Virus record (IMG/VR): IMGVR_UViG_3300013133_000019
Location: 1 to 39,407 of that record
From: a virus
Reading direction: 5' to 3' (one strand)
Length of the DNA stretch: 39,407 nucleotides
Notes under the pieces: model-generated
What the model was told of the DNA's origin: nothing
Seen by the model: only the letters and a program-made list of their open reading frames with translations
Database searches by the model: none
In this document: one piece after another, positions 1-39,072 of the stretch
Numbering within the stretch: the stretch's first letter is position 1
How the letters are laid out: each line of letters starts with the position of its first letter
Program-made: the position numbers and the translations under genes

Positions 1-3000
1 AAGAACAACTTGATACTGAGGGAGAAACAGTAACTCCTTATAAAGGTAAAAGATTTGAAGCACTAGCAGATACCGCATTAAAAGATACAGCTCAAGAAGC
101 TATTTCAGATAATCCTGAAGACCCCAATTATAATGTAAAAGACACTGACCCTAAAAGAACAATACATTTTGTAGTTAAAAGAAATATCTTAAGATTATTA
201 ACAGGTAAGAACTCAGGATCAGAAATTAATTATCCTGGCGCGGGTAAAATTTATTTACGTGCTCAAAGTAAAGGTACTATTCCTGATGATAGACTATTAT
301 CAGATAAAGATCCTAGAAGCTCTAGGAATACATCTGATGTAGTAGCTGTTGTAGTAGATGCTGCAGGTAACCCAGTTAAGTTTGATGATGCAGGCAATGT
401 AAGTCCTAACGGAAACATTGTGTTCTTTAATATTAATAAGCCATATAATATTGAAGCAGAGTACGAAAGAAAACGTGTAGCTGCTATAGTTAAGATGTCA
501 GGTGTATCTGAAGAAGAAGCAATTGATAGATTACTTGATGAGAAGAAAACAGTAAATGGTATTATAGACCATGTAATGTTATCTCCTAGTACTAATTCTG
601 TTATGTTAGATATAACAGGTGGATCATTAGGATATGTTGCTTCACAAGAAGATAAGTATACATTATCAAAAGTTAATCTTAATAATGCACCTTTTACTAT
701 TACAAAAGGCAAAGGTAACATATACCAAATAACTATTCCAAGTATATCTGAAAATCCTATAACATTGTTTAATCCTGAAGTTAGGTCTAACCCTAAACTG
801 ATGGAATTATTTGCAGACTTACTTGTGAATGATGTATTTTTTCCATCAGGTTCACCAGTTACTTTAGCAGCTAAGAAAAAACAACTAAAGAACTTCTTAT
901 ATTTTAGCCTACAGTTTGAAGCAAATCTAGATGTTAAGGGTGGAGCTTTAATACTTTTTGGTCAAGAAACAGATTTAAGTACTGATGAAGCAAAAGCTGC
1001 AGCTAAAGAAAAAATATTAAAAATATTCAACTCACCTTTTGTATCAGGAACATTATCTGCTACTCAAGTAAATAAGAAAAAAGCAAAAGGCGCTAAAGTA
1101 TATACAGATCAAAATGATCCAGCAATTAAACAAGGTGATATACTTGAAACAGATGGAGTATATCAATTGCTAAACTATCCTGGATTATACATTGCTCCAA
1201 AGATTTGGGATCTTAAAGAAAATGAAACAGGTACTGTACCATTTATCAATCTTACCAAAGATGATAAAGGTAGGTATGTTTTATCTACTATTGCTGATGG
1301 ATATATAAGTGACTATGTATTTGAGAACTTCTTAATAGATAAACAGCTTAATGGTAATAATGAAATCGTATTATTAAATCCATATCTTACTTTTACACCT
1401 CTTAACTATAGATCAATTGCAGTTAAAAAAGAACCTGTAAAAGATGCTGTTAATGAAGCTTTAAATAAAACAAATCCTAGTGCTGCTAAAGATTATGAGA
1501 ACATGTCTTATGCACAAAAAGAAGCTTTTAAGATAGCTGAGTATGCAGAAAATAATAAAGGCCCTCGTCAGTCTACTGCAAAAATTGCTGCAGATATTTT
1601 CTTAAATAACTTAAAGAAAGGTAACTATAATGCTCGTACAAAAGAAGAAGTACAAGAAATTCTTGATGAGTTAATTAAAAATGCTGCTCTAAAGAAAACA
1701 CATATTACTCCTATACAAAAGCTAATTGATACAATTGCTTTTTCAGAAACTGAAGTTGAAATTCTACCTGAAATTACTGATGAAGAATATGTACCTGTAC
1801 CTGAAGAAGTAATTGAACAACCTGTAGCAGAAATTACTTTAACAGATGATGAGATTGCTGAGACTGATAGTTTAATTAGTGGTATAGAAGCTACAGGAGG
1901 TGAGGATCAATCTACAGAAGAAGAGGAAGATGATAATGATGGTTATTACAAACGTCAAGCACAAATTGATAACTCTGAAAAAATTACTGCTCAGCAGCTT
2001 AAAGAAGCTAGAGAGTGGTATGAAAGGAGTCCAATTAGTAAAGTCTTTACATTTGAAGAAGCATATAATCTAGTAAATCAACGTAACCCAGATTCTATTG
2101 CACAATGGACACGTAATGGTATTGTGTTATTTAAAGGATCTAATCTAACTGATTTATATCATGAGGCTTTTCACGGCTTTACACAAGCATTTATGACTCC
2201 TGCTCAAAGAGCAGATTTATATAATGCTGTAAGAGAAAAATCAGGAACTTTTGTTACATATAAAGGACAGACTAAATCTTTTGCAGATGCAACAAATAAA
2301 GAAGCTGAGGAATACTTAGCTGAAGGATTTAGAAAATGGATGCTTGCAGGAGCTAAGAAAACTTCACTAGATAAGTCATCTTCTAAGATTGCCAACTTCT
2401 TTGAATGGCTATTTAATAAACTTAAAGCTTTATTTGGCAAATACGAGATTAGTGATATTACAGCCAATGATAAAGCTAATGAGTTCATTGAAGATATATA
2501 TAATAAACTAAGTGATCCTAAAGGTGATTTTGGTATTTATAAGTTTAGTGTAGATAATTTAAATCAAGGGTTTGATGTATTATACAAAGGCCCTCAAGCT
2601 GTAAATGAGGAACTTCCTATTAATAAGAAGATGCCTTATTTAAATAACATGCAGTCTGATTTACTTATGTCATCTATAGATAGTTGGATGGCACAAGTAC
2701 TATCTGTTGAAGCTACACAATTATCAGAAGAAAAAGCATTAAAATTCTTTAATGATTCTATTAAGGCATATGTATCTGGAGAAAAAAGTGCATCGCAAAT
2801 AGAATCAGAAAGAACTAAGATTGCAAAAGAACTTAACTACGGGAAGATAGCACGTAAGTTAAAAAGCAAACAAGGTCGTACTAATTTATATAAGCAAGTA
2901 TATAATATACTAGGTAAGTTATATAATGAAGTATATAATAAGCGTGAAGAGTTAAAACGTAAGACAGATAGAAATCAAGAAGAACAAAATCAATTAGCTG

Positions 3001-6000
3001 CTTTAGAAGAACAAGCTAAAATTCTTTACTGGTCATATACTAACTTTGGAGATATTAATAATCTAGATGCAAATGTTCAATCAGAAGATGGTACGTTTAA
3101 AGGAGTTATTGCATATCATATTGCAAATTCTCCAGCATTTGGTGGTGCTGCTATAGAAGGTCTTGATGCAATAGATCAAGAAGAAACAAACTCTAGAAGT
3201 CCATATGCTGATAGATTAGGTAATGAACAAAGTCTTGTTGATTTAGCAAAAGAAAGAGCAGAGGTTAAGTTTTTATTTAGAAGTGTATTTAGAATAAATC
3301 CAGAAACAGGAACTCCTTATATGAATTCTCTAGGTGCTCCTGAAATAATGCACTTTAGAGATCTATGGAATAAGGTAGCACTGCTATTAGAGAATACATT
3401 AGATCCTGCAGAGATGTATGCTAAGCTTGCAAAATTTGCTGCTTCTGAAGATAAAACTGAAATGACATATGCTGTTGCTCAGCTTATGAATAAGTTGGGC
3501 CCTAAAGGTTTAGATAGAAGTAAGCATAAACATCTACAGGATATAGATGCAGAAAACTTATGGACAAGTTTTTGGAGTATATTCTCTAATAGACGTATTG
3601 CTCTTATGGCAATGACTGCTACTATTACTGAAGATAAAGGAAAAATAAGTTTTGAATCTAGAATTGGTCGTGGTATTAATCCTAATGCTAGAGTAGGTAA
3701 AAAGTGGGATAGTGATTTTCCAAAATCAACTAATAAATATAAAATTGTTATTGATGGTATTCCACAACTTGACTTAAAACAAATAGTAAAAGATTTTTCA
3801 TCATTAAAAAATAAGGTTCAGAAGAGTAGAAAAATAGATCCACAAGATGCATTAGATTTCTTAAGTGCTTTAGGTATTAATTTAACAGCTAATAAGGAAG
3901 TAATTAATGCATTACAAAATGGAGATCCTGAATTTGAAGTACCTGCAGATTTTAATGTATTAAAAACATTTTTTGCTAATAGGTTCAGTGATCTAAGAAC
4001 ATTAGATCCAACATTAGGATCTCTAAAAAATAGTGAATTTCCTTCTTACTTAGAGATATTAGCTAATGATCCTAATATTATAATACAACGTCCTTCAGAT
4101 TTATTTAAAGATAGAAGAAATCTTTCTGTTAAAATAGGTACTGAGGTATATGACATGCCTGAACTAAAAGGAGAAAATAAAAACTGGGGAACCCTACAAT
4201 TAGTTGAAGGTCAGTTTGGATCAGGTATACCATCATTTATGGCTACTACTGCAGATAACAATACGCAGTTTGAGCATTCTTTAAATAGTACTATGTCAGT
4301 AATGGTTACTGATATTAACAATGTTGAATTCTATGATGACTTTTTAAAGTTACCGCATCTTAGACATTTGCATTATGAATTTAATCCTGCTGCAAAAAAT
4401 TATGCATGGTTAAAAAATATGTACTATCTAGATAAAGAGAAAGATGGTAATAACTATGGCAAAAGAAAAATTGTAAATGGAGTTAAGGTAGCTCTAGTAC
4501 TTAATAATATTAGTGGTGTTAAAGTAGATGAAAGAGATGGAGTTGCTTCAGCTAAGGCTGATCAGTTCACTAAGTTCATCCTAGATGTACACTTAATGAC
4601 TCAAGTAGGATTACCTGAACTAATGAGACACTCTGATAAGAGTACATCCTATAGTGTTACATTAAACATTATGGAGCCTCTGGGAGATGAGTTTACAGAT
4701 TGGAGTAAGGGTGCACTATATATGCCTACAATTGCATTTCTTAATGATAGATCTGCATATCATAATGTACTATATAATAACTTCATTATACCTAACTTAA
4801 ACATAGAGCTTACTAGAATAATTGGTCTTAAAAATAAAGAGAAAGAAATTATTGATACTCTTAAGAAGATTAGAGAGCAAAAGAAAAAAGGTGGTAAAGT
4901 AGATCCTACTCCTGTATTTGATATGAAGTATTTAAAACAAGGACAGAAGTTTTTATCATTCCAAGGTATACTTAATAAAAAGACAAAAGAAGACTTACTT
5001 GCTGCATTTGAAAAATATACAAATGATCAGTTAGCTGCAGGCGTAGAACCTATAAAAATTACATTACAAGATTTCTTAAAAACTGATCCTGCACTAGATC
5101 TAAAAATTACTCAAGAAACAAGCGTATACTTCCATAATACTTTGTTTAATCAGACAAAGATTACATATGAGGATAGCGGTAGTGTATTAGCTGATAACCT
5201 TATAGATACTGTTTATAAACAAGCATTAAACAAGAATAAAGCTTTATATGAAAATACAAAAGGTAATCGTGAGTTATGGGAAGATGCTATTTTAAGATCT
5301 TATACGATCAATGCATGGATTCATAACATTGAATCAATGAATGTATTATATGGAGATCCTGCATCTTATGACCATGCAAAAGAAGATTTTCATAAACGTA
5401 ATGCTGGTCTTGCATCTACAGGTAACATATATCGAGTAGATGATGATATGTTATATACTATTAACAATACATTAGGAGGTAGAAAGTTTGAAGATCAGTA
5501 TAGATTAGCTATGGGATTAAAGCCTAGAAGAGCTTATGACGGTACAATGGCTACTGCTGTAATAAAAGATAAGATTACAAAAAGTATTTACTGGGATGAG
5601 ATAGGATATAACTTATATGTACAAGATAAAGAGAAAGCTTTACGTGCAAATAATAGATTATCTGATGCATTAAAAAGATCTGAAAAAGAAATCGATGAGG
5701 CAATTAAAACAAAACTGTTTGGTAAGTCTCATAAGAATTTAAAAATAAAAGATATCAGCTCTTTAAAAAATATTACTCCTGATAGAAAGAGTGTAATGCG
5801 TAACTATTTTGAAATGACTGAAGCAGATGCTCAGGGATGGATATCTATGGATGCATATAGAGCTCTTCTTTATTCTCAAGGTGAGTGGACACCAGGGCAT
5901 CAAAAGCTTTATGATGATATGCTTGCTGGTAAAGAAATTGATCAAGCTAAAGTTGGTATATTCTTCCCACCTATTAAGGCTCAGTATTGGGGTCCTCTTA

Positions 6001-9000
6001 TGACAGATGCATTTAGAGTAGATGCATTTCATAAGTTTCAATTAACTCCAATGGTACCTACCTTACTTCAATCAACACCTAAACTTAAAGCATTATCTGA
6101 AAAGATGATGAAAGAAGGAATTGATTACTCAGTATTCCAATCAGGATCTAAGATGGGTAACATGCAAACAGCTAAGCTTGATGAAAATGATGAGCTTGTA
6201 GGTGAAGCTGACAATGTATATGACAATGATACTCGTGATATTAATGAAGATGTACCGTTTACAGTAAACACCATCTTTGTAAAGTATCTTAAGAATCAGC
6301 TTAAGATTGCCCCTAAGTTTAAAGGAAAGAATACATTCCCTACACAGATTCGTAAAATCATTGAAACAGGTTTAATGGAAAATGGTATTCCAACAGACTA
6401 TAAACCTAATGATGAATTTGAATCACGAGTAAATTCTTGGAATGCGTTAAAGCAATCTGATAAAATTAAAGCGTCAACAAACTATAGAAAACTTATTAAT
6501 TATGAAAATGCAATACGCAAACTAAGTTTTGTTAAACGTGCACAGTTATTTAGTAAAGCTAAAATCAACTTTAATCCTAAAACTGGAGAGATAAGAGGCA
6601 ATCTACAGAACATTGTAGAATTTATTAAAACACAGTTAAGTAAAGAAGATCTTGCAGATCATGAGTTAGATTTCATTAAGGTAGATGAAGCTACAGGACA
6701 ACTACAAGCAGACCTTTCCTACTCGCTATCTTCAGAGTTAATAGAGTCAGTACTGAATGCCCTTATCACTAAGTCCCTTGTTAAACAAAAAGTAACAGGT
6801 GAACCTTTAATTCAGGTATCAGGAGCAATGCTTGAAGAAGAACCTCAGTTTACTAATCCAACAGAGGAGCAACTAAAAAAGTATGGAGGCACTAATGGTT
6901 TAACTTTCTTTAGATTGGAAGAAGGTGGTCAAACTATAGAGGCAATAAAAATTAAAATTGCCATGCAGGGTGACTATGAAAAACTATTATATCTAGATGA
7001 AGTTGCTGTTTATAAGGATGAGTTTGTACCTGACCTTAGTAAAGTAAAAATAAAAGCTAAAGAAGGGGTCGTACCTGGAAAAATTGTAAGAGTATTAGAT
7101 TACAACGCATCACTACAAAATCTAAACAACCTTATCAAAGATGAGGACTGGTTAAATAAAGGAGAGAACCGTAATCTTATATCAGCATTTGGTGTACGTA
7201 TACCTACTCAGTCAGAGAATGCTACTGTATTTGCAGAAGTATATCAGTTCTTACCAAAAGAAGCAGGTAACATTATCATTCTTCCTGCAGAGATAGTTGC
7301 ACAGTCAGGAGGTGACTTTGATATTGATAAGTTAACGTTACAGTTTCCTAATATTAAAAAGCAAGTTACTATAGATGATAATGGTGTTAAATCTACTAAG
7401 GTAGGCTTATACAAGGAGACTGATGATAAGGAGTTACGTGCTAAGTATGAAAAATATAAAAAGGCACAAGCAGAATATCTTCTATTAGGTAATCAATATA
7501 AAACTGAATCTGAAAAGAAAAGAGCACTTGAGCTAATGCAGCTTTTGTCTAAAGGTGATATCATTGAGAGTACTATAAATGATATGATTAAAGAAGGTGA
7601 AGCTCTTACCTTTGAGGAATTTGCATTAACTGATCTTGAAAAATCAGCACAGAATGATGTAATGTATTCAATGATTGATATCCTTAGATCTCCTGCTGCA
7701 TACATTAACCTTGTACGTCCTAACTCTATAGATATCCTAGAGCCTTTAGCAGATGATGCAAAAGAGAAATTTAAAGGATATACACCTAAAATATCTACCA
7801 ACGATGAAGAAGTAGGTAAAGAAATTCAGGTGTCTAGAATTTATGAACCAATCTATAACTTGTTTAAACATTATACTAACAACAGTGCAAAAGCTGGTGT
7901 AGGTATTGGTGCTATTGATATTACATACAATGAGATCTTTAACAGGGTTGGTATGTATATGACTCCTAACAATAGAGAATTTGTTAAAGGATTAGAGTTT
8001 AATAGTCCAGAAGTACAAGAAGCAATTGCTCTTGCAAAAAGACAACGTACTATTGAAAATATAGATGCTAAGAAAAAAGCAAAACGTAAACAGTATGCTG
8101 CAGATAATTTAACAACATATGATCAGGTTAAGCCTAATCTATTTAAAAGTAAAGCCGATAAAGAACAGTACTTCTTAACAGATGCTGAAGAGGCAGAAAA
8201 AAAGAAAGTAGAAGAAGAAATAAACAATTACAAATCTAAATATAAACTAGATCCTATTCGATTATTACAAGAATTCCAAAGACAAACTATCTATCTACCT
8301 CATAACACGATGAAGGTAAAAGATTCTGCAGGTAATTTCTATAATGATTTAGCAATTAGTTTATCACATACTACAGATGTATTTGGTCAAAACCAAATTT
8401 CTGATGTCTTGTCACAATTAGAAAATGGTTGGTTAGATGCTGCAAAAGAACCTTGGATATATTACTTAAGAGGTAATGAGCAATTAGCACCACATCTTTT
8501 ATTTTTAGTACAAGCAGGAGTACCTATTGAGCATGTTGTATCATTTATAGGACAACCAATAGTAGTAGAGTATATGGAAACATTATCTAAACTACAGAGT
8601 CAATTTGGTCAATTAATGCAGTTTGAAGGAGTAAATAATGTTACTAGAAATCAAGCTAAGCTCATGGCTAAAAAGATTATGCTTGAAAAACTAGGTTATA
8701 GTTTAGAAGGATATAAAGGTAAGAATAACAGTGAGAAGTTAAATAAATTATTATCTGAAGAAAGCTTTTTTATACAACCTGAAAATGGAGCATTTAATCT
8801 TGATCAGCTAAAAGATCAAATTGATTATGTATGGAAGAACTATCAACCATATGAAAAAAATGGTAAAGTAAGAATGTCAGATAGAAACATTGATTATTCA
8901 GATGAAAAACTTAATGATCTTCAGAAACAAATACTTATTCATTTCTTACAAGTATCAGAAATGCAAGATAGCATCAGAGATGTTAAAATGAAAACAAACT

Positions 9001-12000
9001 TTGATACTACTCCATCTAAAACTCTTAATAGTGCACAAACAAAAATTTCTCAACTTAAAGAGTTAAAGAGAACTAAAACAGAAAAAGATGGTGACATATC
9101 TTCTCAAAATAAATATTGGAGAGTGCCTTCTCAAATAATTGAAAAAATTGTACCTACTATTAAAAGAAAAGATGCAGATGGAACACTCATTGATACAGGT
9201 AATTTAGATGATGATGCTATTGAATCACCTATTGGATCATTCTATGTACAGCCTATTCAAAACTACTTATGGAGTCCTTTATTTCCTCTAAAAAGTAATC
9301 GTACAATAAATAACTTTATTGATAGTTTAGGATTTATTGAAAAAGATAAAGCTCGTAATAACACATGGATGAGCGATGATGAGGAAGTAATTACAGGATT
9401 TAAAAATGCACTTGTTCCTATTATCTTTCAAAATGAATTCTTATCATTTGATGTAAGAAAACTTATGTCAATTGATTTAGAACCTACACCTGTTACATAT
9501 AGAGATGCTGAGGTAAAATTAGAATCAGTAATTGCACTAACAGCAGGTGGTGCAGTAGCTAAGATGGATAAAGGTCAAATGACGATCTACTTTGATTATA
9601 ATACTTTATATAATCAATTTATCAATAAGGATTATGCTAAAGAAAATTATGGTGGAGATCTAAGATTTCAAACTCTTCCTGAAAATCAGTTCCGTACTTT
9701 TGGTGAGTATGTTAAGTATGTATTTGAGAGAGAATATATTAGAGCAACATTTGCTGAATTAGGTGGTAAAAAAGTTATTGATGATCTCTTTGCAACAGAT
9801 CCTAAAGCTAACTCCTTGTATAAGGATAGTTTAGCTAGAGCTAAAGCTGTAGAAGGAATAGAGAAAAAAGATATCAATAAGATTAGAAAGCGTATAGCAT
9901 TTGAAACTTATATTACAAATAAGGCTCTTGTAGAAGTATATAACATGCGTGCTTTATTCAATGGTATTGATACAGCATATGCCTTTGAGATAACTAAGTA
10001 TCAAGATGATCCTGCATATAGTAAGCTAGTAAAAGAATTTAATATATTCCAAAACCTTACAGCAGATGCTGAAACTACAAAAGGTGGGCAAAATAGAATT
10101 AACCTAGCCTTTGTTGAATCTGTTAATGATGCATCAACAATTAACTCTTATTATGAGCAAGTTGCCCATTTAAGTAACAGTGCGTACTTAACACGATTAA
10201 ACAGTATAAGAAACTTAGGTCTTTCTCCAAGTCAGATTAGAGAGATTGAGAGTACATTTAAGAAGCTTCCTATTATAGCATTTTTACAATCAGGTATGGA
10301 ACCTCATGGTAGATTTGCTTTAAATAGAATTGTTGATGAAAGTGTTGTAAGAATGATGTCTCAGTCATGGGTAGATTCTTTTATTGAAAAAGTTCAAAAA
10401 GAAGAGCTATCTAAAAACTCAAGTATTAGATATAAAACTTTACATGAAACTTTTAATGCATTTGTAGGAGCAAATAAACGATATGACTCTCGTGGTAAAA
10501 ACTATATAATTGATAGAACCAAAGATGGTAAACCAGCATTAAGTTTAGAAGATTTAAGAATTATAAATAGTGATATCAATCCTAAAGAGGCATTGTTTGA
10601 TCCTGCATATATACAATCTAATGGATTACCTTCTAATGGATTTATATCTTTAGGAGATACAGTATCTACAGATATTAAATTTAGAGGTGATAAAACATAT
10701 GAAGGTGTTGTATCAAACATCTCATATGAAAATGGACTTATTGATATTACAATTGATGCTACATCAGGAGGTAAAGTCAAACTATTATTTGATACTAAAG
10801 GTAACATACGTACAGCTTATACATCTAAAGCTGAGAGTCCTACAGATTTTCAAAAAACAACTTTTGCAAAACCTAAATTTGAATTATCTAAATACTTTAT
10901 TAAAGAAGTTATAGGGGAAGATAGAGTTTACACTTCAGTTGGTGATACTGTAACTGGTGTATATTCTTATTCTATAAAAGAAAAATCAGTTTTAGAACCA
11001 ATATCTGTTACAGTAGATAGTATCAAAGATATTGGTTATCTATATAATCAAGGAAAAGAGGCTCAAGGAACAAATAGATATCTTGTAGATGTTACCATAA
11101 CTAGTAGAGAAAAACCAGCTAGTAAAACATTTGTTATAGATACTAATGGTATTATTTTAGGTGAAGTATTTAAAGGTAGATTTAACCTTTCAGATAGACA
11201 AAGCTCATTATCTACAATTGTACTTCCTGCAGATAAAAGAAAAGCAGATCCGTCTCTAGTATTTAGATCTATGGTAGAAATGCAACAAGCTAAAGCAGCG
11301 GGTAGAATTCCTGCAGGAGAGATTGTAGAAGTTTTAAGTTTTTCTAAAGATGCTAGTGGTTTACCTGTATCAGATCTATATGTATTAGATGGTAATACAG
11401 GTGAAGTATCTCCTCTTACTGATAACTTGTACGATGATTACTTGAATATGGAAGAAGATATTCAAGAGCTGCTTGAAAAGAAAAATCGATTTGTAGTATA
11501 TAATGATGCAGTTAAAGGCATGGATACTATAGAACAAGATAGTAGTCCATCAACAAATCCATTAGGAGGTAAAGAAAAACTTAAAGATAGATTTGTAAAA
11601 TATGGTGATTTCAATCTTAAGATAGGTATTCCAACACGTAAAAAATATTCAGGAGGAAAACTAAATGAATACTTTGAGGATGATTATGATTACATAAATA
11701 ATGTACAAAAGCCTAATGCTGAAGCAGTAGAAGCAATTGACAAAATGATTGATTCTATTAAGCTTATGATGGATCAGGGGTATACACCTATCTTTAATAA
11801 CTCAGGATATGGGCAGTACATGATTGGAGCAAGTGATGATACTGGAAGAATGATACCTGATGCTGTAGGTACAGGACAAGAAACATTTAAGTATTTATCT
11901 ACTAGACTATTGGAAATAGGTTTTGTAAACCCTAACTTTGTTAAGGAAGCAGAAGGTGTACCAGCTATTATTAAAGCTACTAATCAGCCTGCTACTGAAG

Positions 12001-12041
12001 AAGATATTGTTGAATTAATGAAGAAGTGTTTCTTGATATGA
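1..12041 (+). CDS. Giant virion RNA polymerase polyprotein with zincin protease motif (5' partial)
   Basis: The reading frame is open from the first complete codon (nt 3) to TGA at 12041, so the gene begins left of the window and encodes at least 4,012 residues (numbered here from nt 3). Residues 720-724 read HEAFH, a zincin HExxH motif. Glutamates at 767-770 in a helix-like stretch ending GFRKWM are candidate third ligands. Near residue 2399 RIPTQ precedes GGDFDID (aspartates about 2438, 2440, 2442), matching the metal-binding DxDxD of two-barrel RNA polymerases of the YonO/crAss type. A conserved-looking NSAKAGVGIGA follows downstream. In known crAss-like phages this polymerase is packaged and injected to transcribe early genes; the protease may cut the polyprotein, which is inference. 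The region after about residue 2700 is not recognised. The next gene overlaps by ATGA. Confidence 0.9.
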   Translation, partial: EQLDTEGETVTPYKGKRFEALADTALKDTAQEAISDNPEDPNYNVKDTDPKRTIHFVVKRNILRLLTGKNSGSEINYPGAGKIYLRAQSKGTIPDDRLLSDKDPRSSRNTSDVVAVVVDAAGNPVKFDDAGNVSPNGNIVFFNINKPYNIEAEYERKRVAAIVKMSGVSEEEAIDRLLDEKKTVNGIIDHVMLSPSTNSVMLDITGGSLGYVASQEDKYTLSKVNLNNAPFTITKGKGNIYQITIPSISENPITLFNPEVRSNPKLMELFADLLVNDVFFPSGSPVTLAAKKKQLKNFLYFSLQFEANLDVKGGALILFGQETDLSTDEAKAAAKEKILKIFNSPFVSGTLSATQVNKKKAKGAKVYTDQNDPAIKQGDILETDGVYQLLNYPGLYIAPKIWDLKENETGTVPFINLTKDDKGRYVLSTIADGYISDYVFENFLIDKQLNGNNEIVLLNPYLTFTPLNYRSIAVKKEPVKDAVNEALNKTNPSAAKDYENMSYAQKEAFKIAEYAENNKGPRQSTAKIAADIFLNNLKKGNYNARTKEEVQEILDELIKNAALKKTHITPIQKLIDTIAFSETEVEILPEITDEEYVPVPEEVIEQPVAEITLTDDEIAETDSLISGIEATGGEDQSTEEEEDDNDGYYKRQAQIDNSEKITAQQLKEAREWYERSPISKVFTFEEAYNLVNQRNPDSIAQWTRNGIVLFKGSNLTDLYHEAFHGFTQAFMTPAQRADLYNAVREKSGTFVTYKGQTKSFADATNKEAEEYLAEGFRKWMLAGAKKTSLDKSSSKIANFFEWLFNKLKALFGKYEISDITANDKANEFIEDIYNKLSDPKGDFGIYKFSVDNLNQGFDVLYKGPQAVNEELPINKKMPYLNNMQSDLLMSSIDSWMAQVLSVEATQLSEEKALKFFNDSIKAYVSGEKSASQIESERTKIAKELNYGKIARKLKSKQGRTNLYKQVYNILGKLYNEVYNKREELKRKTDRNQEEQNQLAALEEQAKILYWSYTNFGDINNLDANVQSEDGTFKGVIAYHIANSPAFGGAAIEGLDAIDQEETNSRSPYADRLGNEQSLVDLAKERAEVKFLFRSVFRINPETGTPYMNSLGAPEIMHFRDLWNKVALLLENTLDPAEMYAKLAKFAASEDKTEMTYAVAQLMNKLGPKGLDRSKHKHLQDIDAENLWTSFWSIFSNRRIALMAMTATITEDKGKISFESRIGRGINPNARVGKKWDSDFPKSTNKYKIVIDGIPQLDLKQIVKDFSSLKNKVQKSRKIDPQDALDFLSALGINLTANKEVINALQNGDPEFEVPADFNVLKTFFANRFSDLRTLDPTLGSLKNSEFPSYLEILANDPNIIIQRPSDLFKDRRNLSVKIGTEVYDMPELKGENKNWGTLQLVEGQFGSGIPSFMATTADNNTQFEHSLNSTMSVMVTDINNVEFYDDFLKLPHLRHLHYEFNPAAKNYAWLKNMYYLDKEKDGNNYGKRKIVNGVKVALVLNNISGVKVDERDGVASAKADQFTKFILDVHLMTQVGLPELMRHSDKSTSYSVTLNIMEPLGDEFTDWSKGALYMPTIAFLNDRSAYHNVLYNNFIIPNLNIELTRIIGLKNKEKEIIDTLKKIREQKKKGGKVDPTPVFDMKYLKQGQKFLSFQGILNKKTKEDLLAAFEKYTNDQLAAGVEPIKITLQDFLKTDPALDLKITQETSVYFHNTLFNQTKITYEDSGSVLADNLIDTVYKQALNKNKALYENTKGNRELWEDAILRSYTINAWIHNIESMNVLYGDPASYDHAKEDFHKRNAGLASTGNIYRVDDDMLYTINNTLGGRKFEDQYRLAMGLKPRRAYDGTMATAVIKDKITKSIYWDEIGYNLYVQDKEKALRANNRLSDALKRSEKEIDEAIKTKLFGKSHKNLKIKDISSLKNITPDRKSVMRNYFEMTEADAQGWISMDAYRALLYSQGEWTPGHQKLYDDMLAGKEIDQAKVGIFFPPIKAQYWGPLMTDAFRVDAFHKFQLTPMVPTLLQSTPKLKALSEKMMKEGIDYSVFQSGSKMGNMQTAKLDENDELVGEADNVYDNDTRDINEDVPFTVNTIFVKYLKNQLKIAPKFKGKNTFPTQIRKIIETGLMENGIPTDYKPNDEFESRVNSWNALKQSDKIKASTNYRKLINYENAIRKLSFVKRAQLFSKAKINFNPKTGEIRGNLQNIVEFIKTQLSKEDLADHELDFIKVDEATGQLQADLSYSLSSELIESVLNALITKSLVKQKVTGEPLIQVSGAMLEEEPQFTNPTEEQLKKYGGTNGLTFFRLEEGGQTIEAIKIKIAMQGDYEKLLYLDEVAVYKDEFVPDLSKVKIKAKEGVVPGKIVRVLDYNASLQNLNNLIKDEDWLNKGENRNLISAFGVRIPTQSENATVFAEVYQFLPKEAGNIIILPAEIVAQSGGDFDIDKLTLQFPNIKKQVTIDDNGVKSTKVGLYKETDDKELRAKYEKYKKAQAEYLLLGNQYKTESEKKRALELMQLLSKGDIIESTINDMIKEGEALTFEEFALTDLEKSAQNDVMYSMIDILRSPAAYINLVRPNSIDILEPLADDAKEKFKGYTPKISTNDEEVGKEIQVSRIYEPIYNLFKHYTNNSAKAGVGIGAIDITYNEIFNRVGMYMTPNNREFVKGLEFNSPEVQEAIALAKRQRTIENIDAKKKAKRKQYAADNLTTYDQVKPNLFKSKADKEQYFLTDAEEAEKKKVEEEINNYKSKYKLDPIRLLQEFQRQTIYLPHNTMKVKDSAGNFYNDLAISLSHTTDVFGQNQISDVLSQLENGWLDAAKEPWIYYLRGNEQLAPHLLFLVQAGVPIEHVVSFIGQPIVVEYMETLSKLQSQFGQLMQFEGVNNVTRNQAKLMAKKIMLEKLGYSLEGYKGKNNSEKLNKLLSEESFFIQPENGAFNLDQLKDQIDYVWKNYQPYEKNGKVRMSDRNIDYSDEKLNDLQKQILIHFLQVSEMQDSIRDVKMKTNFDTTPSKTLNSAQTKISQLKELKRTKTEKDGDISSQNKYWRVPSQIIEKIVPTIKRKDADGTLIDTGNLDDDAIESPIGSFYVQPIQNYLWSPLFPLKSNRTINNFIDSLGFIEKDKARNNTWMSDDEEVITGFKNALVPIIFQNEFLSFDVRKLMSIDLEPTPVTYRDAEVKLESVIALTAGGAVAKMDKGQMTIYFDYNTLYNQFINKDYAKENYGGDLRFQTLPENQFRTFGEYVKYVFEREYIRATFAELGGKKVIDDLFATDPKANSLYKDSLARAKAVEGIEKKDINKIRKRIAFETYITNKALVEVYNMRALFNGIDTAYAFEITKYQDDPAYSKLVKEFNIFQNLTADAETTKGGQNRINLAFVESVNDASTINSYYEQVAHLSNSAYLTRLNSIRNLGLSPSQIREIESTFKKLPIIAFLQSGMEPHGRFALNRIVDESVVRMMSQSWVDSFIEKVQKEELSKNSSIRYKTLHETFNAFVGANKRYDSRGKNYIIDRTKDGKPALSLEDLRIINSDINPKEALFDPAYIQSNGLPSNGFISLGDTVSTDIKFRGDKTYEGVVSNISYENGLIDITIDATSGGKVKLLFDTKGNIRTAYTSKAESPTDFQKTTFAKPKFELSKYFIKEVIGEDRVYTSVGDTVTGVYSYSIKEKSVLEPISVTVDSIKDIGYLYNQGKEAQGTNRYLVDVTITSREKPASKTFVIDTNGIILGEVFKGRFNLSDRQSSLSTIVLPADKRKADPSLVFRSMVEMQQAKAAGRIPAGEIVEVLSFSKDASGLPVSDLYVLDGNTGEVSPLTDNLYDDYLNMEEDIQELLEKKNRFVVYNDAVKGMDTIEQDSSPSTNPLGGKEKLKDRFVKYGDFNLKIGIPTRKKYSGGKLNEYFEDDYDYINNVQKPNAEAVEAIDKMIDSIKLMMDQGYTPIFNNSGYGQYMIGASDDTGRMIPDAVGTGQETFKYLSTRLLEIGFVNPNFVKEAEGVPAIIKATNQPATEEDIVELMKKCFLI

Positions 12042-15000
12042 GTGTTTGCCCTAATATTAATTTGCCTGAATGGAAAGCCTTAGAAAAGGAATTTGGTAGA
12101 TACCAAGCTTATCGTGATTTTGTAGAATCAGGATATGAAATAAGAACTGTACAACAAGTACAGAATAAACTTGATGCTGAAAAAATTTCTAAAGCTACTA
12201 CACCTAGATTACCACATACAAAAGGTATAATGTCAGGTAGTGTTGAAGAGGTCAATATGATTGCATTTAATGCATCTCAAATTGATACTAATTCAGCAGT
12301 ACAAAAGATGGTTAGAGATTCTCAAATTACAAGAGCAATGGAAATTGCACGTAAATTATCTGAGAATCTAGGTGTTAATTTTAATATTATTAGTGGGGAA
12401 AGAGCAACAGAAATAACTGCAGGATCAGTTAACCCATGGTCAGGACAGGCTGCATTTTACTATGGAGGAGTTGCATATTTTGTAGGAGATACCTTATCAC
12501 TAAACTCTGTACTACATGAGTTTGCACATCCACTTGTTAGACAGATACAATTAGAGAACCCTACTTTATTTAATAATCTATATAATAAAGTATCTAGTAC
12601 TAAAGAAGGTAGAGAAATAATTGAGAAGCTTGCAACTACACACCCTAAACTAGTTCCTGGAGACATGATGTATGCAGAAGAAGTTCTTGTACAAGCACTT
12701 GAGCATGCTGCAACAAAACAGGAATTAACTCCTAGTTTTATTCAAGCTATTAAAGATTTCCTATTTGCACTAAAGAAAGTATTAAGAAATGCATTAGGTC
12801 AGATTGATGTATCTAAACTAGATCAGAATACTACATTAGAAGAGTTAGCATCTATGCTACGTAACGATAAGTTTCAGATAGATACAGAACTAGTAACAGA
12901 AGAAGATGTAGTAGCCTATGCACAATCGTTCCAACAAGAAATCAATGAGCTCAAGAACCTAGATAAATCTAAAATTCAAGATGTAATCAGAGATGGTTAT
13001 CGCATTGCATCTAGACAGTTGAGACAGCTACAAGAAGATAAGAACTATAAGGAGCTAGCACGTATTCTAAAAAATCAGTATCAAGGGTTTGATATGGAAA
13101 CGATCATGCAAGATCTTAGTAAGTATCAAAAAGAGATTGATAACATTGTAAATAATGCCATTGAAGAAATGGAGTTGCTTACTAATCAATCTACTGCTGT
13201 AGTTAACACTGTATATAACCTTAGAACAATAGTAGAGAAGATTGAAGCTCATATGAAGGATATCTACAAGAATCAAGATTCTAAAGAAAACCTTCAGAAA
13301 GCAGTTTACTACAAAAAAATAGTTGATTATTGGGAAGCATTTATAGATGATTTAGATACTGCATTAAAGGATCCTGAAGCTAATGTTCCAAGTAATGCTA
13401 AGATTTATGATGTCATTAATAATATTCGTGGACGTTTTAAATCTATTAATGAGCTTACTAATACAATGATGGCTAATGGTGCCAGAGATACATTGTATGA
13501 AGAGTTTTTACCTATAGTAAGAGATGCTGAAGAAAGATATACACAGATTATATCTGACTTAAAAAAGAGAGGTGCTCCTCAGAGGACCATTGATAAATGG
13601 TATAGAGAGTACTATGGTATGACTGAAGCAGAACATGAGGTATATAAAGAGCTTAATGATAAGTATAACAAAGGCGAGTACATGAGCAAATCAGACAAAG
13701 CAAATTATGCTAGTCTTAGACTCATGTCAGCAAATGGTATTGAGCTTACTAAAGAGAAGATGGAAGATCTTCTTAAGAATAATATCAAAGATGCTAACTG
13801 GCTTAACTCATTCATGGAAGGTTACATGTATAATAATGATCCAGTTATTGGAGGATTAGCTTTATATGTAAAAAATAGAATGAATGAGGTATACGTAAAA
13901 GCACAAGCAAAGATGAATGCTTTTTCCATGGATATTAGAGACGATCTAAAAGCCATGGGGTATAATCCTCATAACATAGGTGCATTAGGTGAGGTCATAA
14001 TGTTTAAGGATAATATAGCTAAAGAAGAGAATGGAAAGCTTGTAGCTAAGAAAATATGGACATTCTTAAATCCTTTTAAAGATTATAGATATGATCTTCG
14101 TATATTGAACAGAGCTGTAATGGATGCAGAAGAAGAATATTCTGCAAAAGGATCTGATGAAACTCTTAGTAGGTTATACGAAGCTATTGTTAAGCGTAAA
14201 GATTTTATGCGCAAATACTTTCATCAAGAGTTCAAACCAGAGTTCTATGAAAGAGAAAAGATATTTGAAAAGTTCCCTAATGATATAGTAGGGGCTATAG
14301 CTCAACAAAGAAGAAATGATGTTATAGATAAGATTAGAAAAGAATCTATTACAGCAGATGAGCCTGAATCACAAAAGAATCTAGATCGTTTGTGGAGAGA
14401 ATACAGACAGATCTATTCATTATATGATGAGTTTGGTAATACCAAGGAAGGTAATGAGCTATTAATTTCAGAAAGACTTAGAGAATATAGAGAAGCATCT
14501 AGAGATTTCTTTGAGTGGAATGAGCGCCCTGGAGTATTTCAAAATATATTACATGCAAAAGAAGATGAACTTGCATCTAAATATGGTGTAGGAAGTGATG
14601 AGTATAATAGATTACGTGATGCATGGATTCTAAAAAATACAAGGGTAATTATTAAACCTGAATTCTATGCAGAAAGACAAGATATCTTAGATAAGATAAA
14701 TGCAATACTATCTACTCTGCCTGATACAGCTCAGAAAGAAATAGATTTAGCGCCTTTACATCAAGCAATTATAGATATCAAATCAGGATTTAGAGATGAT
14801 AATGGTCAACCTAATCCTGAAGAAATGACTACTGAAGCTCGCGCAAGAATTAAATTTCTTGAAGAAGAAATAGAAAAGCGCAAAGGTCTTTATAGAGGTA
14901 TTAGTGGTTTGAATAAAGAACAATCTGAAAGACTAAATGAACTAATCACTAAAAAGAATGAAAGCGCTCTTACAGATTTAGAAGGAGCTGAGTTTGCAGG

Positions 15001-17674
15001 ATTATGGCAAATGAAAAGAATGGGTCAGTTATCTGATTATCAAAGAAGAGAACTAGACGCAAGATATAAAGAGCTTAATGATCTTTCATCAAATGATGCA
15101 ACCATATACTATATAGATATTATTAATAACTATTTAGCTACTATGGATACTACTGAGTTTGAAAAACAAACAGGTTCTACAATAATCGATGAAACATCAG
15201 CACATTATATGTTGAGTCCTGTTATTGTAAATAATCTTAAAGCACAGAGTCCTGAGTTTGCAAAATGGTATGACGCTAATCATATCTCCTATCAGACGCG
15301 AGAAGGGGAGATGTTTAAGAGAGTTAGTATTTGGTCAGTTACTAGACCTAACAATCCTAATCATTATGAGACTACAAAAATTAAAGATAGAACAGGGAAG
15401 GTAACAGATGTTATACAAGGAAAACCTGCATTAAAATTCTATCGTCAAGAAGTAAAACCTGAGTTTCAGAATGAGAGAATAGTTGGGGTTACTGTAGATA
15501 ATAGAGGTCACTTCCTTCCTAAAGGTATAAACGATTTAGATAAATCATTACCTGAATGGGATAAGTATGTGAACTATCAATACTATGAATTAAAAGAAAA
15601 GAATCCTAGAGCATTTACTGTATTAGAAAAATCTGTTAGATATCACCTTGACAACCAGCAAGGAATGAATCAACGCGATAAGCTGTATCTAGATTTTCCT
15701 CGTTATACAAAAGGTAACTATGAATCTATTATAAGTAAAAGTATAAATGAAAGAGGTCAGAGATTATCAAATGGTGTTACACAGTTAGCTAAGCGTGTAA
15801 GAGAAACATTCCAGAAAGTTAAAGATGACGCAGAACAAGGATTTAGTTACAAGAATGAAAACAATCTAGTATATCTAGATATGTTTGATGATGAATTATC
15901 TAACGTTCCTGTTACAGGATTATATGATATTGAAGTAGATAATGTTTCTACAGATGTAATAAGTGGATTAAACAGATATATGCTAGGCGCTGAGAAGCAA
16001 AAGAAGCTTATTGAAATTAGTCCATTAGCTAGAGCTATTCAGGATGTAGTAAATGATCCTGCAAATAGTGGTGGAGTTGTAGAGCAAGTTAAGAAGAATA
16101 TGATCTCTAGATTCCTTATGCCTCCTCGTAGGAAGAAGGACACTACTGTGAGAGCTAGAGCTATAAATAACTTTATAGAAAGGGAGTTTGAAGGAATTAC
16201 AATGAAAGGTTGGGGTTCAGATTCTGCTGCCTTAAATAAAGTAGCTAATGTTTTATTTAAGAATGCTTCGTTCCAATTCTTTGCACTTAACATTCCTTCA
16301 GCAATGAAGAACCACTTTGGTGCTAAGTTTCAAACTATGATTGAATCAAGTGCAGGTCAATATCTAAATCCTATATCTGCAGGTAAGGGAGAAGCTTGGG
16401 CTAGTATGGCAATGGCAGACTTAAGCTTTGGAGGTAACTTATATACTAAAGGTCCTAAGTCTCTTACTCAACAGATTATACAAGTATTTGATCCTGCTCA
16501 AGGTAGATTAGAAAATGACTTTAGGGTATCATCTATGTCACGTACTCTTACTAAAGATGTTGTAGAAGGGTCATGGTTATATAGTCCAAGAAAATGGTTA
16601 GAGCTACAAGCTACGTTTCAATTATTTGGTGGTATGATGTACCATAAGAAGATTGAACAAACACTACCTAATGGATCTAAGAAGATGATCAACTATATAG
16701 ATGCTTGGCAATTAAATGACAAGAATCAAATTGTTCTCAAAGAAGGTATTGATCCTAAGTGGGGTATTACTTATGATGATGAAGGTAATGTAAAGATGGG
16801 TACTGAATTCTCATTATTTAAGAATAAAGTACATCAGGTAACTAACAACTTACAAGGAGCATACTCTGAGTTTGATCAACCTGAAGCTCAGCGTTATGTT
16901 GCATTTAGATTCATAAGTTATTTAAGAAGATACTTTACACCAATGGTAATGAATCGTTTTGGATATGCAGGACCATTAGGTAAAGCAAGACCAAGATTAA
17001 ACCCTGGATTAGGAGAACCTGCTATGGGTTATTACATAAGAACTCTTCAAGTACTTAAAGAGACAGTAACTCAAATGGGTAAGAATGTTCCCTACATGAC
17101 AAAGGAAGAGTCTAGAGCAATGATGAAAACATTCTCTGAATTTGCTTTACTATTACTAGTTAGTGCAATTATCTTATTAGCATTTGGTTGGGATCCTGAT
17201 GAGGATGATGAAGACAGATATAAAAGACTTAGAAGTAAGTCAGGTGCTATGCCTTTTTGGGGCATTGTAGATGATGATGATAGACCATTTAATAGCGCAG
17301 GTTGGTTAGAGTTACATGCATTAAATCTAATGATACAGATACGTGCAGAGAATGAGCAATTCATACCTATACCTGAAAAGCTATTAGGATTTGGTGGTGT
17401 AGATAATTACTTAGAGATGCTAGATCTTAAGTCTATTGTTACTGGTCCTACTACAGATACAGCACTTCAAATCTTTGATGATGCAATAGCAATTTTGAGA
17501 AATGAAGATAGTGCTTATTACTCTCGTGATGTAGGTCCTTATTCATTTCAAAAGAAAGGTGGGTGGAAGCTTTCTGCTAAACTTGCTAAAATGCTAGGAT
17601 TTACTGGTAGTACACTTGATCCTGCAAATGCAATTCAGAAATTCTACCAAGCTATGGCAATGGTTAAGAGATAA
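12038..17674 (+). CDS. Large virion cargo-like protein with zincin motif and C-terminal membrane segment
   Basis: I chose ATG 12038, which overlaps the upstream TGA as ATGA, over an upstream GTG at 12026; the product is 1,878 residues beginning MSVCPNINLPEWK. Residues 160-164 read HEFAH, a zincin motif, followed about 60 residues later by AEEVLVQAL, which could give the third zinc ligand. Long charged helical stretches fill the middle. One hydrophobic segment lies at about residues 1702-1718 (FALLLLVSAIILLAFGW), followed by a very acidic patch. Position next to the polymerase and size fit the ejected cargo proteins of crAss-like virions. Membrane insertion during DNA entry is inference. It could instead be a capsid-internal scaffold or protease. 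It is the last gene before the convergent terminator. Confidence 0.88.
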   Translation: MSVCPNINLPEWKALEKEFGRYQAYRDFVESGYEIRTVQQVQNKLDAEKISKATTPRLPHTKGIMSGSVEEVNMIAFNASQIDTNSAVQKMVRDSQITRAMEIARKLSENLGVNFNIISGERATEITAGSVNPWSGQAAFYYGGVAYFVGDTLSLNSVLHEFAHPLVRQIQLENPTLFNNLYNKVSSTKEGREIIEKLATTHPKLVPGDMMYAEEVLVQALEHAATKQELTPSFIQAIKDFLFALKKVLRNALGQIDVSKLDQNTTLEELASMLRNDKFQIDTELVTEEDVVAYAQSFQQEINELKNLDKSKIQDVIRDGYRIASRQLRQLQEDKNYKELARILKNQYQGFDMETIMQDLSKYQKEIDNIVNNAIEEMELLTNQSTAVVNTVYNLRTIVEKIEAHMKDIYKNQDSKENLQKAVYYKKIVDYWEAFIDDLDTALKDPEANVPSNAKIYDVINNIRGRFKSINELTNTMMANGARDTLYEEFLPIVRDAEERYTQIISDLKKRGAPQRTIDKWYREYYGMTEAEHEVYKELNDKYNKGEYMSKSDKANYASLRLMSANGIELTKEKMEDLLKNNIKDANWLNSFMEGYMYNNDPVIGGLALYVKNRMNEVYVKAQAKMNAFSMDIRDDLKAMGYNPHNIGALGEVIMFKDNIAKEENGKLVAKKIWTFLNPFKDYRYDLRILNRAVMDAEEEYSAKGSDETLSRLYEAIVKRKDFMRKYFHQEFKPEFYEREKIFEKFPNDIVGAIAQQRRNDVIDKIRKESITADEPESQKNLDRLWREYRQIYSLYDEFGNTKEGNELLISERLREYREASRDFFEWNERPGVFQNILHAKEDELASKYGVGSDEYNRLRDAWILKNTRVIIKPEFYAERQDILDKINAILSTLPDTAQKEIDLAPLHQAIIDIKSGFRDDNGQPNPEEMTTEARARIKFLEEEIEKRKGLYRGISGLNKEQSERLNELITKKNESALTDLEGAEFAGLWQMKRMGQLSDYQRRELDARYKELNDLSSNDATIYYIDIINNYLATMDTTEFEKQTGSTIIDETSAHYMLSPVIVNNLKAQSPEFAKWYDANHISYQTREGEMFKRVSIWSVTRPNNPNHYETTKIKDRTGKVTDVIQGKPALKFYRQEVKPEFQNERIVGVTVDNRGHFLPKGINDLDKSLPEWDKYVNYQYYELKEKNPRAFTVLEKSVRYHLDNQQGMNQRDKLYLDFPRYTKGNYESIISKSINERGQRLSNGVTQLAKRVRETFQKVKDDAEQGFSYKNENNLVYLDMFDDELSNVPVTGLYDIEVDNVSTDVISGLNRYMLGAEKQKKLIEISPLARAIQDVVNDPANSGGVVEQVKKNMISRFLMPPRRKKDTTVRARAINNFIEREFEGITMKGWGSDSAALNKVANVLFKNASFQFFALNIPSAMKNHFGAKFQTMIESSAGQYLNPISAGKGEAWASMAMADLSFGGNLYTKGPKSLTQQIIQVFDPAQGRLENDFRVSSMSRTLTKDVVEGSWLYSPRKWLELQATFQLFGGMMYHKKIEQTLPNGSKKMINYIDAWQLNDKNQIVLKEGIDPKWGITYDDEGNVKMGTEFSLFKNKVHQVTNNLQGAYSEFDQPEAQRYVAFRFISYLRRYFTPMVMNRFGYAGPLGKARPRLNPGLGEPAMGYYIRTLQVLKETVTQMGKNVPYMTKEESRAMMKTFSEFALLLLVSAIILLAFGWDPDEDDEDRYKRLRSKSGAMPFWGIVDDDDRPFNSAGWLELHALNLMIQIRAENEQFIPIPEKLLGFGGVDNYLEMLDLKSIVTGPTTDTALQIFDDAIAILRNEDSAYYSRDVGPYSFQKKGGWKLSAKLAKMLGFTGSTLDPANAIQKFYQAMAMVKR

Positions 17675-37972: not shown

Positions 37973-38839
37973 TTAAAATATATAACGTATTGTGTTCCAA
38001 GGTATTATCTCATCATGTAATTCAGTCCATTCTTTTATGTACTTAGCTTTAAGTGCGTGATGATATCTAAGATTCTCTCCACCATATTGTGATGTTTTTG
38101 TTTCTTGAATATCAGGTCGCCATAATAAACTCTCACCAGGTAATTGATACTCTAAGTTTTCTAAATGCTTGCCTTCATTATGAGTAAGAAAGATTACTTC
38201 AGCTTTTGTCATTTGAGGATGCCACAAGTCTCTCCTAAAGGTAGCTTCTACTTGTTTAAATAACTCCTTGTAGTCTTCTAACCAGCCATCATATACAATA
38301 ACAGGACTAAAGTTTAAATGCACCTCATATCCTGCTGTTTGAAATCTAAGTACTGCATCTAATCTTTTCTGAATGGTACTTGTATTTGGCTCTAGTATTC
38401 TACTAAGTTTATCAGGCATTAGACTAAATCTGATACGTATCTTGTAGTCAGGATTATACTTTAGTAGATCTTCATTCACATACTTAGTAGCAAAGGAACC
38501 CATAGCACGAGGATGCGCTTTAAAGAAATCAAATATCTTCTCCCACTCATGATACTTAGCATGCAGAGCAAAGTCTTCATTACATGAGATATCATATGTA
38601 ATATACTTATCATGTGTTTGATTAGGCTTCTCTGCATCTGCAAACCACGCGTGATGATCTATTGCAGTAAGTATATCCTCGGTATTTCTAGCAATAGATA
38701 AATCAGTAGACTTGTGTCTCTTCATGTAACAATATGTACAATTATACAAACAACCATGACCAAAGGTAGGAGAGATATAATCTGTACTCCTACCACTAGG
38801 TCTGATATCCATGCTTCTCCGTTTAGTATAAGTTACCAT
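37973..38839 (-). CDS. Radical SAM enzyme, spore photoproduct lyase-like
   Basis: From ATG 38839 the protein is 288 residues; the longer frame to 38848 would start with TTG. HGCLYNCTYCYMK holds the cluster cysteines C30, C34 and C37 (CX3CX2C). SPTFGHGC before it and the pattern of later strands (RIRFSLMPDK, HLNFSPVIVYDG) resemble spore photoproduct lyase and related DNA-repair enzymes, which use a 5'-deoxyadenosyl radical to reverse thymine photoproducts. For an AT-rich, thymine-rich genome such repair would be useful. The substrate is inferred, not shown. Confidence 0.8.
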   Translation of the reverse strand: MVTYTKRRSMDIRPSGRSTDYISPTFGHGCLYNCTYCYMKRHKSTDLSIARNTEDILTAIDHHAWFADAEKPNQTHDKYITYDISCNEDFALHAKYHEWEKIFDFFKAHPRAMGSFATKYVNEDLLKYNPDYKIRIRFSLMPDKLSRILEPNTSTIQKRLDAVLRFQTAGYEVHLNFSPVIVYDGWLEDYKELFKQVEATFRRDLWHPQMTKAEVIFLTHNEGKHLENLEYQLPGESLLWRPDIQETKTSQYGGENLRYHHALKAKYIKEWTELHDEIIPWNTIRYIF

Positions 38840-38844
38840 GATAA

Positions 38845-39072
38845 TCAATCTAAAGATAAACTATATGACAATAACTCACTGTGTAATAGATCTCTTACTT
38901 GTATGAGTGCATCAATTACTTCTTCTGGAGTATCATCATCAGCATATTTAGTTCTTGATCTTAGTTCTTCATCAATAGTCCATAGAACCATTTTATATTT
39001 TGAACCATTCATAGCACTTTGCAACTCCTCTGCATCTTCGTAAGGATCAAACTCTAATATTACTTTTGCCAT
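38845..39072 (-). CDS. Small acidic phage protein of unknown function (75 residues)
   Basis: It begins MAKVILEFDPYEDAEELQSA, then has NGSKYKMVLWTIDEELRSR and a helical acidic end. This arrangement is familiar from many small phage proteins of unknown function (an INGSKY-like motif followed by LWDID). It is placed 5 nt ahead of the radical SAM start and 5 nt after the 40-residue gene. Confidence 0.8.
   Translation of the reverse strand: MAKVILEFDPYEDAEELQSAMNGSKYKMVLWTIDEELRSRTKYADDDTPEEVIDALIQVRDLLHSELLSYSLSLD

Follow-up and report, generated by a model that had tools for sequence, protein, structure and literature searches.

For the most abundant gut phages it is not yet settled how several giant proteins, with a total mass near 700 kDa in PhiCrAss001, pass out of the virion through a narrow tail in an ordered way. 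The stretch of DNA analyzed here, a virus record of 39,407 bases (the window), begins with a giant gene that bears on it. Reading frame +3 has no stop between base 3 and the one at 12041 (plus strand, 4,012 codons), its 5' end being open at the left contig edge, and encodes a giant chain with a zincin and a virion RNA polymerase. The earlier note on this DNA had read HEAFH and a polymerase core with RIPTQ and GGDFDID as parts of one chain open through the left edge, and this agrees with the coordinates of the single window chain (HEAFH at residues 720 to 724, RIPTQ at 2399 to 2403, GGDFDID at 2436 to 2442), with a GC content by codon position that is protein-like across the entire frame, and with a relative, L004, which is 84% identical over the overlap and carries the complete gene of 4,265 residues. 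The window chain is thus without about 250 N-terminal residues. In L004, a distinct gene, coding for at least 980 residues, stands ahead of the giant gene.

The chain starts with a beta-rich N-terminal region (residues 60 to 480, bases 180 to 1442, pLDDT of about 80 to 95 over much of the region), which is confined to the window clade and close relatives; its profile matches only L056, L071, and L086 among the targets. An acidic linker predicted to be disordered (residues 557 to 662, bases 1671 to 1988, pLDDT of about 30) leads to the zincin-like domain (residues 661 to 860, bases 1983 to 2582), in which HEAFH is encoded by bases 2160 to 2174. The RNA polymerase core, delimited by homology to phi14:2 gp66, covers residues 1763 to 2897 approximately (bases 5289 to 8693) and holds the catalytic segment from RIPTQ to GGDFDID (residues 2399 to 2442, bases 7197 to 7328). 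It is followed by a poorly shared beta-rich insert with the look of tandem small barrels (residues 3550 to 3800 approximately, bases 10650 to 11402) and a conserved C-terminal block (residues 3895 to 4012, bases 11685 to 12038). Cys4009, fourth from the C-terminus (bases 12027 to 12029), is the sole cysteine among the 4,012 residues; the other window genes have about 1% cysteine. Pfam and PHROGs scans of the chain returned no family.

The next gene on the plus strand (bases 12026 to 17674) encodes the giant protein of a module that we call DN, a homologue of crAss001 gp49. It overlaps the giant chain gene, its likely true start, ATG 12038, lying inside the last codons of the latter, and its only cysteine is residue 4 from this start (MSVCPN..., bases 12047 to 12049). 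The DN protein has a second HExxH motif (HEFAH, bases 12515 to 12529), which recurs in several relatives, not all. Past the DN gene lies a long block of opposite-strand genes with a replication look, and the region has the layout of a Crassvirales transcription block, in which the giant genes for an upstream protein (UP), the polymerase (RNAP), and DN are convergent with a replication block. On the minus strand, bases 37973 to 38848 encode a Radical-SAM-like protein with the motif CLYNCTYCY.

With the window chain alone as query, the only PDB sequence match is phi14:2 gp66 (PDB ID 6VR4; phmmer E=7e-22), independent evidence for the polymerase that the earlier note had placed in the giant chain. 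Two separate stretches align to residues 949 to 1097 and 1328 to 1566 of 6VR4, and tblastn matches annotated crAss-like RNAPs. Relatives were collected by a profile search, a single-sequence search having given one locus. All 87 of 87 relatives conserve D2438, D2440, and D2442, and the RIP motif and a number of lysines vary hardly or not at all. By its sequence, the window chain belongs to the crAss-like virion RNA polymerases and has a zincin domain ahead of the polymerase, and its double-psi barrels are predicted from the homology to 6VR4. An N4-type (T7-like single-subunit) polymerase is ruled out by the match to a DxDxD two-barrel enzyme. Packaging in the virion and injection have been demonstrated for relatives (PMC10172136; PMC7886860) and would, by analogy, apply here.

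About 1,500 residues after the core had been called unexplained. Some 1,570 residues follow DFDID; up to residue 2,870 or so the chain still aligns with the solved phi14:2 polymerase, and on to about 3,500 it is conserved in most relatives, which leaves the part from about 3,500 to 3,850 as poorly shared, ahead of the small conserved block at the C-terminus. The C-terminal model gave no significant Foldseek match against the PDB, the absence of 6VR4 there saying little, and the second-look aligner found only small-barrel matches with Z below 5.3, none convincing.

In the zincin-like domain, H720, E721, and H724 are conserved among relatives together with the following glutamate pair E769/E770, a candidate third ligand. 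The AlphaFold2 model of residues 1 to 1100 (mean pLDDT 69; about 83 to 89 over most of 720 to 780) places HEAFH and the glutamate pair in conserved helices (717 to 730 and 765 to 781) behind two short strands. Foldseek found nothing significant for this model in the PDB; the second-look aligner matched residues 661 to 810 to PPEP-2 (Z 5.6) and to a lethal factor zincin (Z 5.2 to 5.5) over 99 to 130 residues. The conserved HExxH plus glutamate and the modest likeness of residues 669 to 805 to PPEP-2 and lethal factor (Z 5.2 to 5.6) bear out the protease domain of the earlier note, and the modeled HEAFH region probably belongs to the zincin-type fold class. Among the complete polymerase chains of our discovery set, 43/59 have the zincin, 1,378 to 1,777 residues before DxDxD.

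A giant chain of zincin and polymerase is an already known layout in crAss-like phages. The zincin-to-polymerase stretch was found by tblastn in many deposited crAss-like genomes, with 24 records covering at least 80% of the query, and both motifs occur in the chains of cr118_1 (4,946 residues), cr4_1 (4,491 residues, TAG-recoded), cr130_1 (5,801 residues), and cr272_1 (6,386 residues). The same layout reaches 6,386 residues, and crAss-like single-chain polymerases are not confined to about 2,200. Neither the size nor the fusion is unusual: many deposited phages share them, and giant RNAPs of up to about 6,000 residues are described as a hallmark in review (PMC10136315). The cr118_1 giant chain (L001:9850-24690) has a UvrD-like helicase motif at its C-terminus, which is probably why it is labeled "DNA helicase."

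The known systems differ from the window in how the parts are joined. Phi14:2 gp66 has a homologous core with DFDID, and phi14:2 likewise has the gene order UP-RNAP-DN, but gp66 is a protein of 2,180 residues without a zincin, to which the window chain adds the zincin, the N-terminal region, and the C-terminal insert. In the Suoliviridae (cr118_1 QOR58373, cr4_1 YP_010112556, cr1_1, cr130_1, and cr272_1), the zincin lies about 1,430 to 1,620 residues before DFDID in chains of 4,300 to 6,386 residues, where the whole UP is fused and the N-terminal cysteine is missing; in the window clade, by contrast, UP is split and the complete relative L004 has a cysteine at both chain ends. The p-crAssphage proteins gp45, annotated as "RNAP associated protein fused to zincin protease," and gp44, annotated as "RNAP catalytic subunit fused to unknown RNAP subunit," hold the same modules as the window, with the zincin ending UP. 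However, the p-crAssphage RNAP is fused to DN and not to the zincin, and there is one cysteine pair, at the UP/RNAP break. N4-type virion polymerases also carry zincins (PMC5512222; PMC12633501). N4 gp50 is an injected, cysteine-free polymerase of about 3,500 residues, but it is T7-type, with the zincin after the polymerase, and forms a single chain without couplers. Polyvalent proteins resemble the window chain in having a zincin-like metallopeptidase inside a large multidomain protein delivered to the host; their survey names no crAss-like chains.

The module map was anchored on crAss001, where gp47, with the zincin near its C-terminus, is UP, gp50 is RNAP, and gp49 is DN, all separate cargo proteins of the virion. 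The zincin profile matches gp47 at its C-terminal end (residues 2132 to 2237, E=2e-12). The profile of the window clade upstream protein, UPa, gives a weak but significant match to gp47 with filters off (E=3e-8) and no match with default settings. Matches of the DN profile are crAss001 gp49, phi14:2 gp65, and, in the fused Intestiviridae chains, the C-terminal part. The number of polypeptides that make up UP, RNAP, and DN ranges from one to four, depending on the phage. All three are separate in the Steigviridae; UP is fused to RNAP in the Suoliviridae and Flavobacterium phage Fpv1, and RNAP to DN in the Intestiviridae and Crevaviridae. The window clade has UPa, then UPb fused to RNAP, then DN, UPb being the remainder of UP including the zincin. 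At one extreme, L124 (L124:1775-18700) joins UP, RNAP, and DN in a single chain of 5,642 residues, among the longest seen, with an N-terminal end resembling the p-crAssphage UP (E=6e-45), a C-terminal end resembling gp49, and 0 cysteines. At the other, L016 (L016:15853-23387) has DN split into genes of 757 and 1,758 residues, and a new, third terminal cysteine pair stands at the split.

What looks new is the placing of the cysteines, exactly at the ends where one chain stops and the next begins, in giants that are otherwise nearly cysteine-free. In the chains compared, the pattern at the level of sequence is a cysteine near almost all ends that face another module and, with few exceptions, none at fused borders or free ends. 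Polymerase chains nearly always have a cysteine within the last few residues, often in unrelated surrounding sequence. In the discovery set (66 chains, below 90% identity), the facing ends with a cysteine number 43/46 for the UP C-terminus, 47/51 and 60/62 for the RNAP N- and C-termini, and 56/56 for the DN N-terminus, compared with 1/15 free UP N-termini and 1/47 free DN C-termini. The rest of these chains has 7.6e-5 cysteines per residue, which rules out simple cysteine richness as the cause. The rule was fixed before a held-out set of IMG/VR loci was scored, and there 86/94 facing ends had the cysteine, versus 0/39 free ends (Fisher p=5e-26, kinship ignored). The eight misses are wrong starts in L131 and L158, a broken frame in L123 (two ends), and four recoded Suoliviridae-type chains in which the cysteine stands 16 to 50 residues from the end.

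GenBank families outside the discovery of the rule obey it as well. The Steigviridae have two pairs, the Suoliviridae and Fpv1 one at the RNAP/DN break (only one of the 4,401 residues of Fpv1 gp33 is a cysteine), and the Intestiviridae and Crevaviridae one at the UP/RNAP break. The rule still holds in crAss001, cr112, cr128, and DAC17, whose UP gene lies on the other strand. The recoded cr272 and cr7 have lost the avoidance of cysteine, and their coupler positions are still filled; some RNAP+DN chains have 5 to 27 additional cysteines.

On a tree of 140 chains, a cysteine is present at 93/93 junction N-termini versus 1/15 fused ones, and at 103/104 junction C-termini versus 2/31. Cysteine and chain break agree in 107/108 chains at the N-terminus and in 132/135 at the C-terminus, the misfits being errors of the length rule (L056, L012, and L041) or L145, with a cysteine 50 residues from the end. 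Supported branches have four concordant and no discordant N-terminal events (sign test p=0.125) and one concordant C-terminal event. By such event counts the evidence for the rule is good but not overwhelming, and the L016 split and the L124 fusion add support.

Most exceptions can be traced to frameshifts, fused types, or, in L016, the further split of DN. L071, L086, and L087 have UP fused and hence no break at the N-terminal end; in L071 and L086, the N-terminal domain lies deep inside the chain. The UP cysteine of L074 is 21 residues from the end. Apparent breaks without cysteines proved to be broken frames, not chain ends, in L080, which is frameshifted relative to the intact L010 (98.8 to 100% identity), and in cr108, inside the GSD/FDID motif. 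The cr108_1 gene (L095:15824-16115) is interrupted within the catalytic motif (GSD / DIDKM), which is what an intron would produce. In L065 (L065:4856-15225), the polymerase frame is broken between two conserved regions into 2,181 and 1,276 residues with a 1-base overlap and no cysteines, either by a frameshift or as a genuine two-gene polymerase; we read it as one chain broken midway. L029, whose true C-terminal end with its cysteine is on the following frame of 361 residues, and L123 are, like L065, read as broken frames too, though these three have no near-identical intact copy. One clear loose end of the rule is p-crAssphage gp47 (L098:1197-3770), an ejection-type cargo protein with an unpaired C-terminal cysteine.

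We infer a disulfide bond between the terminal cysteines. The reading that we favor, with somewhat more confidence than doubt, is that the window encodes crAss-like transcription cargo packaged in the virion, whose terminal cysteines form head-to-tail disulfides joining the chains into a strand for injection. The cargo would comprise the zincin and polymerase chain, the DN chain, and a UP chain beyond the contig edge. Single terminal cysteines would pair a C-terminal with an N-terminal end in place of a peptide bond, giving one continuous strand of about 5,400 to 8,000 residues packed in the head. Its passage through the tail would follow a set order (UP-RNAP-DN or the reverse) and would accompany or precede that of the DNA. 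Host cytoplasmic thiols would then reduce the couplers, and the polymerase would refold and transcribe the early genes. The near-total avoidance of cysteine elsewhere would, as in N4, prevent wrong bonds. With similar confidence we extend the proposal to the Crassvirales and their relatives, in which the giant cargo proteins would be covalently coupled tail to head, the reducible strand functionally replacing peptide fusion.

Comparable observations exist for N4, where gp50, gp51, and gp52 have 0 cysteines, the cargo polymerase is one chain, and the authors explained the absence of cysteine by tail passage (PMC3915230, PMC2784036, PMC3715699). The PhiCrAss001 virion has other disulfides, and extrusion of its cargo in a partly unfolded state has been proposed (PMC10172136). 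Several crAss-like genomes encode thioredoxin-like proteins, which is suggestive only. Counting against couplers, oxidation would need a late or catalyzed step in the anaerobic gut, the related sequences are non-independent, and independent tree events are few; to these are added the extra cysteines of some RNAP+DN chains, the more distant cysteine of the four recoded chains, and the unpaired one of p-crAssphage gp47. In the literature searched, neither a precedent for disulfide coupling of ejected phage proteins nor a description of the terminal cysteines came up.

The cysteines might instead make other contacts, such as shared zinc sites, homotypic disulfides, or anchoring to a common portal or ejection protein, which we consider rather doubtful. 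Several copies of each cargo protein are estimated per virion (PMC10172136), so homotypic contacts are possible, and the exact position of the cysteine differs by a few residues between chains, which would suit a docking tail; but the cysteines are limited to module breaks, occur on both sides of them, and are gone on fusion, and homotypic or anchoring roles would predict neither this loss nor the absence from free ends. It is very improbable that nucleotide constraints at gene junctions, or miscalled gene ends, produced the pattern. Although the RNAP and DN genes mostly overlap or are separated by no more than 40 bases, the cysteines are kept across gaps of 550 to 650 bases, with both TGT and TGC codons, and in the four phages with UP on the opposite strand, whereas unrelated minus-strand genes score 1/32 and 3/32. 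In crAss001, gp47 and gp50 are on opposite strands and yet the cysteine is present at both facing ends, so that a DNA junction motif is rejected.

The earlier note had suggested self-cleavage into virion proteins. It appears unlikely that the zincin processes the giant chain while the virion is assembled, releasing several virion proteins with a free polymerase among them. In favor of it, nearly all fused relatives retain HExxH plus glutamate, the position of the zincin coincides with the gene break of crAss001 and phi14:2, and processing by zincin domains has been proposed for polyvalent proteins (PMC5512222). The zincin-fused N4 virion RNAP is packaged uncut (PMC5512222), the zincin-bearing gp47 and the polymerase gp50 of PhiCrAss001 are separate genes whose products were both detected in virions (PMC10172136), crAss001 retaining its zincin in spite of this gene split, the jaberico UP chain has no HE[AGST][FWYL]H and phi14:2 gp67 no HExxH, and a cutting of fused chains would not easily account for cysteine pairs solely at true chain breaks. 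The suggestion is unsupported, and self-cleavage before packaging is disfavored. A role apart from chain processing, with the zincin injected as an effector to cut host proteins in early infection, has a better though still minority chance: it was proposed for the zincins of polyvalent proteins (PMC5512222), and the closest folds, PPEP-2 and lethal factor, cut other proteins, but no host target is known and the fold match is modest (Z 5 to 6). The zincin is found at the UP/RNAP border in both fused and split phages, and it may act after injection; it might cut its own chain, act on host proteins, or give only structural help.

If the coupler reading is right, the phages would inject their polymerase modules as a train in fixed order, to be uncoupled in the host cytoplasm, a compact natural means of linking and releasing large proteins. 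The coupler rule predicts the order UP-RNAP-DN, accounts for the avoidance of cysteine elsewhere, and, in these badly annotated genes, lets real chain ends be told apart from introns and assembly errors. The recorded mass spectra of reduced and non-reduced PhiCrAss001 virions (PMC10172136) allow a direct test. The predicted linked tryptic pairs are gp47 CNS with gp50 CITTNSTIEELAAK (M 1812.823; 2+ 907.419, 3+ 605.282) and gp50 ICGANTLYEL with gp49 CAIIPQVR (M 1992.017; 2+ 997.016, 3+ 665.013).
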